From the NCBI GenBank assembly GCA_002840535.1, contig PHBH01000028.1:109932-173931 (forward strand): DNA of 64,000 nt. The letters run 5' to 3'. The notes under the pieces are model-generated. The model was not told the DNA's origin. It searched no databases and saw nothing but the letters and a program-made list of their open reading frames with translations. Origin of the DNA: Deltaproteobacteria bacterium HGW-Deltaproteobacteria-15 (GTDB taxonomy: Bacteria; Desulfobacterota; DSM-4660; Desulfatiglandales; HGW-15). This document shows positions 744 to 4,942 of this stretch, piece by piece. The position numbers and the translations under genes were made by a program. Within the stretch, counting starts at the first letter, position 1. Every line of letters starts with the position of its first letter.

Positions 744-3146
744 TCACTTTACATCTTCCGGGGCCTGTACCCCGAGGAGCAGGGTGATTGCAGCCGATGT
801 CTCAGCGCCGTCACCGGCAGAGGGGAACCGCCACTTTTCAATTTGATCGGCGATGTCTCTCCGGAAGTCCGCGCCGCCCTTCAGGACCTTAACCTCCCTT
901 ACCGCGCCTTTCGCATCGATTTTGAAGCTCACTGTCAGCCGGGCAACAGAATCGAATCCCCGGCAATATTTTTCAAGATCCCCCATCCGCTCCTTCACGA
1001 CCTTTGAGACCGCCTCCTTGGTTAATCCGCCGGATGCCGTCACGTCCCCCAGGGTGATTGTGCGATTGGCGAGCCTTGCGCCGCTGCCAGTGTTTGGCTC
1101 TTCTGTCTGTTCCTGACCCTTCATCTCGCGTGCTCCTGATTTTTCCATTTCGGATTTGTCATAGGCGGACGCGGCAGGGACTGATCGCATCAACGAGTGT
1201 TGTGGGCTCATCGACTTGGCCGCACCCACCGCATAATTGGAAACACCTTGAGGCAACGGGAGGGGCTGGTTCACGGAAACAGGCCTTCCATCCTCTCCGC
1301 GTATATGGGTGTCGACAGCGACAAAAGAGGTGAAGGAGGTGAGAAGATTGTACCGCAGACCGAGTTCGGTGACTGTCTCGTTTTGCCGATCGTGCCGGCG
1401 GAGGTTGTGGTAGTCCGAGAGCTTGATCCGATGGCGAGCCCAGAGGTAGCGGAGACCTCCGTTTGCGCCCGACGGGGTCACGTCGCCGGCGTTGATCGTA
1501 GTTCTGTATTGACCATGTCCGGAAATCCCGCTCACAACGATCTTGCCGCGGGGCCTGCCGTGATACTTACCGAACACGATGACCGGGCGTTCGGAGAACA
1601 CATCGGGTATGTGGGGCGGCTCGACCTCGTAGGCGTCGAAACCGTCGAATTCCACTTTCACCCTCGTAAGTACGGGAGACTGGATGATGGCCCGGAAACG
1701 CCCGGCCTTGGAAGGTGCTTCTTCCGGCCTCGTTATCACGAAGGATTCGCCCATCCCGACCGCGGCCATTCCCTCGATGAGATGTCTGTTGACGCTTGTC
1801 CCGATTCCGAAGGCAAAGACATTGGCGCTCCCCAGACGGTTTCGTATCAGGTCGAAGGCTCCCGCCTCGGCATTGATGAAGCCATCTGTCACGATTACCA
1901 CGGTCCGGGAATAATTCTCCTGCTGTTTGAGGCCGAACGCCTTTTTAAGAGCAGGCAGAAGTTCGGTTCCTCCTCCGCCCACCTGCCTGTCAATGAGGGC
2001 AAGGCCTTTTGAGATGTTCTCCCCAATTGCCGGCACCGAGTGCTCTGCCATGACCGATGACCCCCCGGCGAAGAGAACAACATTGAAAAGATCGGATGGG
2101 CGAAGGCCGCTCAGGAGATCTTTGATGAGTTTCTTTGAGACATCGAGCGGATACCCGTGCATGGAGCCCGAGACATCGACGATGAAGATATACTCGCGGT
2201 CGAGGATCTCCGTTTTTTTCACTCTCTTGGGTGGCTCCATCATGAGCAGAAAGAAATTCTCCTCTTCGCCCTCATGCAGGAGCAGTCCCGCCTCTATACG
2301 GTCGCCCTCCAGCGCATAGCGAAGAATATAGTCCCGGTTCCCGCCGTGCTGTTCCGACCGTTCGAGGCTGACTCTTGCAACCGAAGGCCCATCGTACCTC
2401 ACGCTCACCTGATGAGAGGAGCAGCTCAACTGCCTGATCGGCATTCCGGCCGCTATGTCTGCGCGGATATCAAAGGTGTAAGTCGGAGCCTCCCCGGCAT
2501 GGAGGTAAGGGTTCTCCACCCAACGGTTCTCGGGGGGCGATGCATCGCTCCTTTGATTGGAGTAACGGGGACCGACAACAGTGGGGTAGACAAACTCATA
2601 GACTCCCTCTGTCGGAACAAGCAGTTCAGTATACTTGAGCTCAACTTTTATCTCGTCCCCGGGCATGATATTCGCCACGTTCATCTGGAAGACATTGGGC
2701 CTCTGCTGTTCAAGGAGAGAAGCGCTTTTTCCCTGGTCTCTGGCCTGGTCGTATGTCCGGCGGGCCTCCTCACGCCTCGCGATTTTCGCCTCGATGACAC
2801 GGGTGCCGATGGTCATCCGCATCCCATACACCGCAGCCCTTGTAGAGGACGGGAAAACATAGAGGGCTTCCAGCGTTCTCCTGCCCTCGTTCTTGTAGAT
2901 CTGGGTGACATTGACATCGGCGATCACTCCCGAAATGTTGACCTTGGCCGATGTTGCCTTGAGCGGCATCCGGTCTACCGTGGAATCTTCGCTTCTCACA
3001 TAAAAATAGGGCGAAAGGGTCCGGTCATCTGATTTGCCTTCCGGAAGGGGAGCTGTTCCGCCAAAACCCGCCCTGGAGACGATGCCTCCACATAGAATGA
3101 TGCCCAGCATGATAAGTAGTGCCGAAATCCTCGTCGTCTGCTTCAT
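744..3146 (-). CDS. VIT and von Willebrand A domain surface protein with AgmX/PglI-like C terminus
   Basis: This 800-residue protein starts with a Sec-type signal (MKQTTRISALLIMLGIILCG). A VIT domain spans roughly residues 45-190. A VWA domain begins near residue 320 with the metal-ion-dependent adhesion motif DVSGSM followed by a conserved T and D further on. The last ~100 residues (VSFKIDAKGAVREVKV, IEKWRFP) resemble the TonB-like AgmX/PglI C-terminal domain known from myxobacteria. The ATG is preceded by AAAGGAGGT. It is divergent from an ECF sigma/anti-sigma pair, and an ECF-type promoter lies upstream at 3187-3215, so it is probably a sigma target. The role is inferred to be an exported adhesion or envelope-stress protein; no enzyme activity is suggested. 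Confidence 0.85.
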   Translation of the reverse strand: MKQTTRISALLIMLGIILCGGIVSRAGFGGTAPLPEGKSDDRTLSPYFYVRSEDSTVDRMPLKATSAKVNISGVIADVNVTQIYKNEGRRTLEALYVFPSSTRAAVYGMRMTIGTRVIEAKIARREEARRTYDQARDQGKSASLLEQQRPNVFQMNVANIMPGDEIKVELKYTELLVPTEGVYEFVYPTVVGPRYSNQRSDASPPENRWVENPYLHAGEAPTYTFDIRADIAAGMPIRQLSCSSHQVSVRYDGPSVARVSLERSEQHGGNRDYILRYALEGDRIEAGLLLHEGEEENFFLLMMEPPKRVKKTEILDREYIFIVDVSGSMHGYPLDVSKKLIKDLLSGLRPSDLFNVVLFAGGSSVMAEHSVPAIGENISKGLALIDRQVGGGGTELLPALKKAFGLKQQENYSRTVVIVTDGFINAEAGAFDLIRNRLGSANVFAFGIGTSVNRHLIEGMAAVGMGESFVITRPEEAPSKAGRFRAIIQSPVLTRVKVEFDGFDAYEVEPPHIPDVFSERPVIVFGKYHGRPRGKIVVSGISGHGQYRTTINAGDVTPSGANGGLRYLWARHRIKLSDYHNLRRHDRQNETVTELGLRYNLLTSFTSFVAVDTHIRGEDGRPVSVNQPLPLPQGVSNYAVGAAKSMSPQHSLMRSVPAASAYDKSEMEKSGAREMKGQEQTEEPNTGSGARLANRTITLGDVTASGGLTKEAVSKVVKERMGDLEKYCRGFDSVARLTVSFKIDAKGAVREVKVLKGGADFRRDIADQIEKWRFPSAGDGAETSAAITLLLGVQAPEDVK

Positions 3147-3186
3147 GATTGACCTCCTTTGTCTTTCGAATTGGACTGCTATTCGA

Positions 3187-3215
3187 TGAGACAGGGGAGG
3201 GCGGCAAAAAGTTCC
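3187..3215 (-). promoter_or_regulatory. ECF-sigma-type promoter of the VIT/VWA gene
   Basis: Read on the minus strand, GGAACTT (3215-3209) is followed after 16 bases by GTCTCA (3192-3187). This matches the GGAACTT..TCT class recognised by RpoE-like ECF factors. The same two boxes with the same spacing occur in front of the neighbouring sigma gene. Confidence 0.7.
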
Positions 3216-3359
3216 GGAAAAAATCCTGAGATCCTGAAGTCAATGCTGGTGTATAGTGAATGGAGCATTCGCAATGGCACTGGCAGAGGAGACCGGCACC
3301 ATGCTCACCAACCTTGAACATCGTGAAGAACCTGAGCAAGACAAAGGAGTAAGCACGAC

Positions 3360-4064
3360 GTGATGCTTGCCTCTGCGTGTCTCTTGCTTTTCATGGTTCC
3401 CCTTCTGACTTTGTTGCGGACCCGGGGAACAAATGTTCCCGCGGAGTTGTCTCAAAGAGCAGAGGGGCACCTGGGAAAAGCGGAGGAAGATTTCGAGCTT
3501 GTTTCTGCTGCTCAGGCGGGTGAAGTCGCCGCATTCGAGAAACTTGTCAGGAAATACCAGAAGAGGATGCTCAATATCGCTTACCGGATGATCGGGGATT
3601 ACGAGGATGCCTGCGAAACCGTGCAGGAGACGTTTCTCTCCGCTTATCGATCCATAAAACGTTTCAGGAAGGAAGCCGCGTTCTCCACCTGGCTGTGCGC
3701 GATCTGCCTGAACCACGCTAAAAATCGTCTGAAGAAGACGAGAAACAAGGCCCGGCACGAGGTGCAGCCGATGGACGACCTGCTGGAGACGGAAGAGAGT
3801 GCATTCGCTCGTGAGACCGCTTCGGATTGCCTTTCCGTCATTGAGCAGATGGAGCGGAAAGAGGTGCAGGAGAAGGTGCAGGAATGCATGAATGGACTGG
3901 ACGACGAATACCGGGAGGTTCTCGTCCTGCGGGATATCCAGGGATTCTCCTATGAGGAGATCAGCGCTATCCTGAATGTCCCGGATGGGACGGTAAAATC
4001 GCGCCTTTTCAGGGCGAGGGACGGTTTGAAGAACAGCCTGAAGAAAACGCTTGGGGAACTCTGA
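3360..4064 (+). CDS. ECF-subfamily RNA polymerase sigma factor (RpoE-like); start uncertain
   Basis: The protein contains region 2 (FEKLVRKYQKRMLNIAYRMI, then QETFLSAYRSIKRF and FSTWL) and region 4 (LDDEYREVLVLRDIQGFSYE followed by EISAILNVPDGTVKSRLFRA), the standard two-domain ECF layout. The GTG/ATG start of the ORF adds a hydrophobic stretch (LACLLLF-like) that is foreign to sigma factors. An ECF promoter at 3426-3454 lies inside this 5' part, so translation from that promoter must start downstream; CTG at 3471 would give a product beginning just before KAEEDFELVS. The stop overlaps the anti-sigma start by one base, showing translational coupling. It should direct transcription of itself and of the VIT/VWA gene. 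Confidence 0.9.
   Translation: MMLASACLLLFMVPLLTLLRTRGTNVPAELSQRAEGHLGKAEEDFELVSAAQAGEVAAFEKLVRKYQKRMLNIAYRMIGDYEDACETVQETFLSAYRSIKRFRKEAAFSTWLCAICLNHAKNRLKKTRNKARHEVQPMDDLLETEESAFARETASDCLSVIEQMERKEVQEKVQECMNGLDDEYREVLVLRDIQGFSYEEISAILNVPDGTVKSRLFRARDGLKNSLKKTLGEL
3426..3454 (+). promoter_or_regulatory. ECF-sigma-type autoregulatory promoter
   Basis: GGAACAA (3426-3432), 16 bases, GTCTCA (3449-3454). Box sequences and spacing match the promoter of the divergent VIT/VWA gene. The -35 part overlaps a perfect palindrome GGGAACAAATGTTCCC (3425-3440), which may bind another regulator. Confidence 0.65.
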
Positions 4065-4942
4065 TGGAGTGCCGGAAAATCCAGGAAATGCTCACGCCTT
4101 ACCTTGAAGGGGCGGTCACGCCCGAGCAGGAGCAGTTCGTCCGTGATCACCTCTCAACCTGCGAAAAATGCAGATGCTCCTTGGAAGACCTGCGAAAAAC
4201 CGGCACGCTGGTGAAGGATCTCGAAGAGATCGAGCCTCCTCCCTGGCTCACACAAAAGATCATGGCACGGGTGAGGGACGAAGCGGAGCATAAGGCCGGG
4301 GCGCTGAGACGGTTCTTCTATCCGCTCCGTGTAAAGCTCCCTTTGCAGGCATTTGCGGCGATCCTGATCATAGGATTTGCCGTCTTTTTGTATAAAGTCA
4401 ACGCGCCCCGGTACGAGGCGCCAAAAGTGGCCCCCGGAACAGGAGCAGTTCTGCAAAAGGATGACCTTCGCATCCCGGCCTCTCCTGAGGGTCCCCGCAG
4501 GGCGAATGACGCGCAAACCAAACATGAAGAGGTGAAGCAGGAGACCGCGAAACAGTTCACCGCAGAGAAAAAAAGACCTCGCGAAGGTTCCATCGGTGCA
4601 GATCGGATTGCCGAAGCTCCTGCCGCAGTTTCCGGCAGCGTCGCTCGAATGAAATCCGAGCGGTTTTCCATCACGGTCCGGGTAGAGGACGTCGCCGACG
4701 CAGCAAAGAAGGTTGAAAAGCTCCTAGAAAAGGTGGGGGCTCAGCAAGTCACGAGGGAGTCACGGGAAGGGAGGGAATCCCTCTCTGCAGAGCTGAAAGG
4801 CGAGAAGGTGAAGGGGCTCCTTCAGAAACTCAGCGGTGTCGGTGAAACTCATGGCTCCGCCTCTGACACCCGGGCCGGGGAAACCGTTGCGATCAGGATC
4901 GACCTTTTCGAGACAGTAAAGCAGGATGAGGGCCACAAATAG
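4064..4942 (+). CDS. Anti-sigma factor with zinc-finger (ZAS) domain, one TM helix and a periplasmic domain
   Basis: The N terminus carries the zinc-binding anti-sigma signature: CxxI-like start (MECRKIQEML) and HLSTCEKC, the H-x3-C-x2-C motif that holds ECF sigma factors inactive. A single membrane helix (LQAFAAILIIGFAVFLYKV) lies near residues 95-115. The outer part has a charged low-complexity linker, then a domain around 195-285 (FSITVRVEDVADAAKKVEKL) resembling the DUF4349 fold found in such sensors. The ATG overlaps the sigma stop (TGATG), as usual for co-expressed pairs. It is inferred to sense the envelope and release the sigma factor; the signal and protease are not in the window. 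Confidence 0.9.
   Translation: MECRKIQEMLTPYLEGAVTPEQEQFVRDHLSTCEKCRCSLEDLRKTGTLVKDLEEIEPPPWLTQKIMARVRDEAEHKAGALRRFFYPLRVKLPLQAFAAILIIGFAVFLYKVNAPRYEAPKVAPGTGAVLQKDDLRIPASPEGPRRANDAQTKHEEVKQETAKQFTAEKKRPREGSIGADRIAEAPAAVSGSVARMKSERFSITVRVEDVADAAKKVEKLLEKVGAQQVTRESREGRESLSAELKGEKVKGLLQKLSGVGETHGSASDTRAGETVAIRIDLFETVKQDEGHK

Follow-up and report, generated by a model that had tools for sequence, protein, structure and literature searches.

Conserved ECF-type promoters at a divergent sigma factor and VIT/VWA gene pair point to a near-minimal regulon

The window analysed here is a stretch of 64,000 nucleotides from Deltaproteobacteria bacterium HGW-Deltaproteobacteria-15. On its plus strand, the longest open reading frame (orf) of an ECF sigma factor spans positions 3360 to 4064, with conserved sigma domains from about 3490, and is followed by the gene for a 292-residue membrane anti-sigma factor (4064 to 4942), the ATG of which overlaps the sigma stop codon. 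On the minus strand, positions 744 to 3146 encode an 800-residue VIT/VWA protein with a signal-peptide-like N-terminus, a VIT domain, a VWA domain, and a weak AgmX/PglI-like C-terminus. Each of the two divergent genes has an ECF-type promoter sequence. That of the VIT/VWA gene lies at 3187 to 3215 on the minus strand (GGAACTTTTTGCCGCCCTCCCCTGTCTCA; −35 GGAACTT, −10 GTCTCA), and that of the sigma gene, a candidate autoregulatory promoter, at 3426 to 3454 on the plus strand (GGAACAAATGTTCCCGCGGAGTTGTCTCA; −35 GGAACAA, −10 GTCTCA). The spacer is 16 nt in both, and the original prediction that the two genes share GGAAC(T/A)(T/A)-N16-GTCTCA with equal spacing is thus exact. The plus-strand site lies within the longest sigma orf and over the translation-start codon of the homologues, and is therefore not a plain upstream site.

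The sigma factor matches Pfam Sigma70_r2 (5e-16) and Sigma70_r4_2 (1.5e-18) as well as Sigma70_ECF, and its domain content is that of group IV, with sigma2 and sigma4 present and sigma3 absent; it scores 111 bits against TIGR02937 (cut-off 42.9). It does not reach the cut-offs of the RpoE equivalog TIGR02939 (145.2 bits, cut-off 236.15) or of the SigW equivalogs NF007223 and TIGR02948 (131.5 of 209 and 119.4 of 243.1 bits, respectively). Its closest homologues belong to other families of the phylum and are about 60% identical to it, against only 40–44% for those found in the window's own order. This pattern could be due to horizontal transfer or to contamination in binning, which is reported at 7.89%.

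The anti-sigma factor matches Pfam zf-HC2 (2e-10) and also DUF2275, and in the window and its relatives alike the gene of a zf-HC2 protein overlaps the sigma stop codon, as for a cognate pair. In the AlphaFold model the anti-sigma domain is helical and is followed by a helix (about residues 94–112) that is the predicted membrane anchor; a disordered linker leads from there to a C-terminal domain (about 200–283) with the order beta-alpha-beta-beta-alpha-beta. No Foldseek match of this model reached E 0.001; the N-terminal part falls near RsiW of the SigW-RsiW complex 5wuq (33% identity, E 0.018, TM 0.69 by target length), and the C-terminal part gave weak matches only, for example PulM. The putative envelope-stress role of the locus derives solely from this type of anti-sigma factor, with its zf-HC2 domain, one predicted membrane helix and periplasmic domain.

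The VIT/VWA protein matches Pfam VIT (2e-35) and VWA_3 (3e-16), the VIT domain preceding a VWA domain with the DxSxS, T and D metal residues. These residues, present as DxSGS...T...D, make up a complete-looking metal site, and DVSGSM, GGTE and TDG are invariant or nearly so in an alignment of 17 VIT/VWA proteins. The score against the sortase-target family TIGR03788 is 407.6 bits, under the curated cut-off of 551.65, and this identity was therefore rejected; the score against NF033768 is 25.6 bits (cut-off 40, not reached), and no LPXTG-like tail was seen in the translation. Its initial description as a surface protein is unsupported, as the sortase-target score lies below the cut-off, and nothing in the analysis backs the adhesion regulon that had been suggested with it. 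We infer that the protein is exported, with a location in the periplasm or envelope.

A pattern search of both strands finds exactly two matches to GGAACWW-N16-GTCTCA in the window, one for each divergent gene, where 0.03 would be expected from dinucleotide shuffles; none of 100 shuffles reached two. The genome scan that had been proposed as a way to define the regulon returned the same two sites only in the whole genome of about 7 Mb, and the relaxed pattern GGAACWW-N14-16-TGTCTHA still gives just two matches in the whole assembly (6,984,887 bases). A looser pattern has six extra matches, five of them within orfs, and a broad regulon in this genome was rejected on these grounds. The assembly also holds two further VIT/VWA relatives, L032 (contig C88) and L036 (contig C59), and the ECF promoter is absent at both, so that in this genome only the paralogue adjoining the sigma gene carries it.

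Relatives of the VIT/VWA gene were collected from 172 confirmed contig stretches, of which 80 were kept, together with loci from related genomes. Among the 105 with upstream DNA, 54 have GGAAC-N17-19-GTC upstream of the VIT gene against 1.6 expected, and of 23 sigma genes nearby, 15 have the motif where 0.6 would be expected; both statistics ignore kinship. The 65 distinct VIT promoters have the consensus GGAACTTTTT ... TTGTCTAA and share GGAAC[T]TTTT ... TTGTCTAA; the site recurs in them as GGAACTTTTT-N-TGTCTAA. At the sigma genes, the promoter GGAACAAA-N-TGTCTAA, with the form GGAAC(A/T)(A/T)(A/T) ... TGTCTAA, is present in 44 of the 53 homologues with enough upstream DNA. The bases following GGAAC are mostly A-rich in sigma promoters and T-rich in VIT promoters, and the spacer sequences differ widely among the conserved promoters. 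The −10 elements of the relatives are mostly GTCTAA, and the GTCTCA of the window is thus a variant.

The VIT promoters also share an initiator downstream of the −10 box, with A at the seventh base in 50 of 65, a purine at the eighth in all 65, and A at the ninth in 57. The A seven bases past the −10 box is likely the transcription start, judging from its conservation. In Neisseria, the mapped start of sigma-E promoters is an A six nucleotides after CGTCTAAH, which is the same place as the conserved A of the VIT promoters (PMC2893595). This initiator position puts the predicted +1 of the VIT/VWA gene at the A at 3180, giving a 34-nt leader (3147 to 3180, minus strand) with a Shine-Dalgarno sequence AGGAGG at 3153–3158, and that of the sigma transcript at 3461 on the plus strand, where the sixth to ninth bases read C-AGA.

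VIT genes adjoining a sigma homologue have the site in 19 of 20 cases, and in the twentieth it stands before the DUF4139-VIT operon of that locus; this count leaves out L069, L073 and L109, which have weak sigma matches only. The remaining VIT genes, those with no adjoining clear sigma homologue, have it in 35 of 85 cases, and many site-bearing VIT genes lack a sigma homologue within 6 kb, although some contigs end there. The promoter is not common to all VIT relatives, being absent at Bacteroidetes and other distant loci as well as at L032 and L036.

When 395 genomes of the phylum were scanned with the pattern, 97 sites were found, with matches numbering only one to four per genome. Counted across the genomes there is no excess over the reversed control pattern, which has about 98 matches, and the enrichment is one of position only: 19 of the 97 precede a VIT gene, where chance would give 0.001, 15 are at sigma genes, and 11 more are within 5 kb of either. 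On inspection, the nearby group comprises the sigma promoters of sigma-anti-sigma-VIT operons (L230, L231, L232 and L233) as well as other targets. The other 52 do not exceed the control level and need not be functional. The motif might have proved equally common in coding sequence, but this objection is not borne out: the two window sites are unique in their genome, and those of the 395 genomes pile up before VIT and sigma genes, the rest being background. VIT and sigma genes occur together in 19 genomes against 5.6 expected, a statistic that ignores kinship.

The same ECF promoter also precedes other genes. A DUF4139 protein is behind it in L221 (398–1855), L228 (1246–2703) and L059 (4518–5969); in L059 the DUF4139 gene is immediately upstream of the VIT/VWA gene, forming a DUF4139-VIT pair. 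A family of secreted proteins of about 265 residues, with strongly conserved VVIAVDGRNIISGKK and SAGTG motifs and no convincing match in a Pfam search, is behind it in L157 (677–1459), L166 (1576–2373), L167 (676–1458), L222 (1913–2713), L223 (416–1228) and L229 (1893–2768). By gene content, the module appears to have one to three outputs, with the VIT/VWA protein the most frequent in this sample, a frequency biased by the use of VIT in choosing part of the sample.

The two promoters are present in the window, are kept in many genomes, and are concentrated at VIT and sigma genes. That the promoter pair is kept in related bacteria despite differing surrounding DNA makes the VIT/VWA gene very probably the dedicated target of the sigma factor, and the direct-target part of the original prediction is strongly supported by dozens of genomes, its 'surface' and 'adhesion' parts excepted. 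We propose, with high confidence on sequence grounds, a self-contained ECF module. The membrane anti-sigma factor would keep the sigma factor inactive until an envelope signal released it, and sigma-RNA polymerase would then transcribe from two near-identical promoters, its own (sigma and anti-sigma) and the divergent one of the VIT/VWA gene, so that the exported VIT/VWA protein would be the main and perhaps sole dedicated output. The inferred parts of this scheme are that the adjacent sigma factor reads both promoters, that an envelope signal is the trigger, and what the VIT/VWA protein does. The locus appears to be a real, conserved, near-minimal ECF regulon.

The start codon of the sigma gene in the window appears misplaced for a normal autoregulated transcript. 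Starts at 3360 or 3363 are improbable to judge from the comparisons: the long N-terminus that they would give is common to no homologue, and in a related clade the substitutions in the upstream DNA are about equal at all codon positions, whereas those in the downstream coding part are mainly at third positions, so that a long N-terminal extension is unlikely there. A 29-codon orf at 3274–3363 (MALAEETGTMLTNLEHREEPEQDKGVSTT), the TGA of which overlaps the in-frame ATG of the long sigma orf, is probably due to chance. Of the later candidates, TTG at 3447 overlaps the −10 box and would be missing from a transcript starting at 3461, and CTG at 3471 is preceded by a ribosome-site-like stretch, GAGGGG.

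In 32 of the 44 homologues with the promoter, the TG of the −10 box (TGTCTAA) stands in the sigma frame as xTG TCT (ATG 10, TTG 10, CTG 11, GTG 1). In 13 of the 44 the next ATG or GTG is exactly four bases past the −10 box, and six others have an ATG at five bases; transcription is expected to begin near these codons, which suggests that translation in those homologues is leaderless or almost so. In 11 of the 44 no ATG, GTG or TTG follows the −10 box before the conserved sigma domain begins: the window (3447–3473) and ten of the 43 others (L040, L046, L048, L051, L060, L061, L062, L124, L138 and L160). The ATG, TTG or CTG candidates of these 11 overlap the −10 box or lie upstream, and the window and L040 also have a downstream CTG. 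With no canonical start codon past the −10 box, the self-activated transcript may begin at or past the sigma start codon in these 11, within a family in which the candidate promoter for positive autoregulation is present in 44 of 53.

If the ECF promoter does lie on or inside the sigma start codon, the active sigma factor would transcribe the anti-sigma and VIT/VWA genes but no translatable full-length sigma, autoregulation would act as a brake and not as an amplifier, and sigma would be supplied from a second promoter upstream. We consider this version of the module unlikely. A conserved block TTTGCAATC...GTAAAA (TTTGCAATC-N-GTAAAA) lies 77–89 nt upstream of the ECF promoter in L040, L046, L051, L062 and L085, with a visible variant upstream of sigma in a sixth relative, L061, and was not found in the window. 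It is possibly a separate, housekeeping-type second promoter, and could be the one supplying sigma under such a brake.

Turning to readings that compete with the proposed module, the two sites could be real ECF promoters read by some other RpoE-like sigma factor encoded in this genome, with the adjacent sigma as one input among several. The motif resembles the general RpoE-type motif, and another ECF factor of the same genome could thus read it: GGAAC and GTC are common to many ECF factors, the −35 of Escherichia coli sigma-E is GGAACTT (cited in PMC2893595), the genome has 11 candidate sigma-like matches (only the window's own passes 1e-40), and many site-bearing VIT genes lack a close sigma homologue. 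This reading is nonetheless improbable, as 44 of 53 homologues of the adjacent sigma gene carry the motif themselves, the VIT gene and the adjacent sigma family co-occur above expectation, and one to four matches per genome are too few for a general RpoE regulon.

Even less probable is that the plus-strand match is simply sigma coding sequence (Gly-Thr-Asn/Lys ... Leu/Met-Ser-Asn) and no promoter. The site is in the sigma frame in 32 of 44 homologues, and the orf of the window is open upstream. However, GGAAC and GTC are kept letter-exact in GC-rich and AT-rich genomes alike, even where the site is not in the sigma frame or a stop comes after it (L057, L132, L134, L135 and L162), both boxes also stand before VIT, in DNA that is non-coding, and substitutions upstream of and within the site in the close-relative clade have no codon-position bias, unlike those in the coding part downstream. 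Chance similarity of two unrelated sequences has a negligible probability and was rejected, since the equal totals of real and control matches over the 395 genomes (97 and about 98) are set against a conserved footprint, with 34 of 97 sites directly at VIT or sigma genes where 0.001 would be expected before VIT, and two sites in the window where 0.03 would be.

VIT/VWA proteins occur widely among bacteria. A dedicated and conserved ECF switch controlling one to three outputs would offer a direct handle on what they may do at the envelope. The 65 VIT and 44 sigma promoters are natural variants with a visible start site, and constitute a ready data set on specificity. Nothing in the proposed module is new in kind, as ECF sigma factors paired with zf-HC2 anti-sigma factors, promoters of the GGAAC/GTC type and regulons of small size are all known. 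No link of VIT/VWA or DUF4139 proteins to ECF factors was found in the literature searched, the coverage of which excluded the main ECF reclassification, and the module may already lie within a described ECF group. The start-codon overlap is the part that could prove new; if true, it would be a simple natural case of a sigma factor feeding back only through its inhibitor.

Among known systems, the RpoE/SigW type of ECF factor with a zf-HC2 membrane anti-sigma factor is alike in having sigma2 and sigma4 only, an overlapping anti-sigma gene, GGAAC/GTC boxes, and putative autoregulation, and the predicted structure of the window's anti-sigma factor resembles RsiW of the SigW system; it differs in that the window sigma falls under the equivalog cut-offs, sites are few per genome, and the −10 box overlaps the sigma start region in many homologues. 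Sigma-E of Neisseria meningitidis, with the −10 CGTCTAA, has a very small regulon consisting of its own operon and msrA/msrB (PMC2893595); it is alike in this and in having the start A at the same distance from the −10, and differs in its −35 (GTAAGGTT) and in a target unrelated to VIT/VWA. The marine proteobacterial sortase targets of TIGR03788 share the VIT and VWA architecture over residues 65–640, from which the window protein is set apart by its score (407.6 of 551.65 bits), weak AgmX/PglI-like C-terminus, and ECF sigma linkage. Streptomyces SigR is transcribed from two promoters, p1 and p2, that yield two functional isoforms, and is a precedent for the position of an ECF promoter deciding which protein form is made (PMC4921905); in the window, by contrast, the autoregulatory transcript may begin at the start codon or beyond it.
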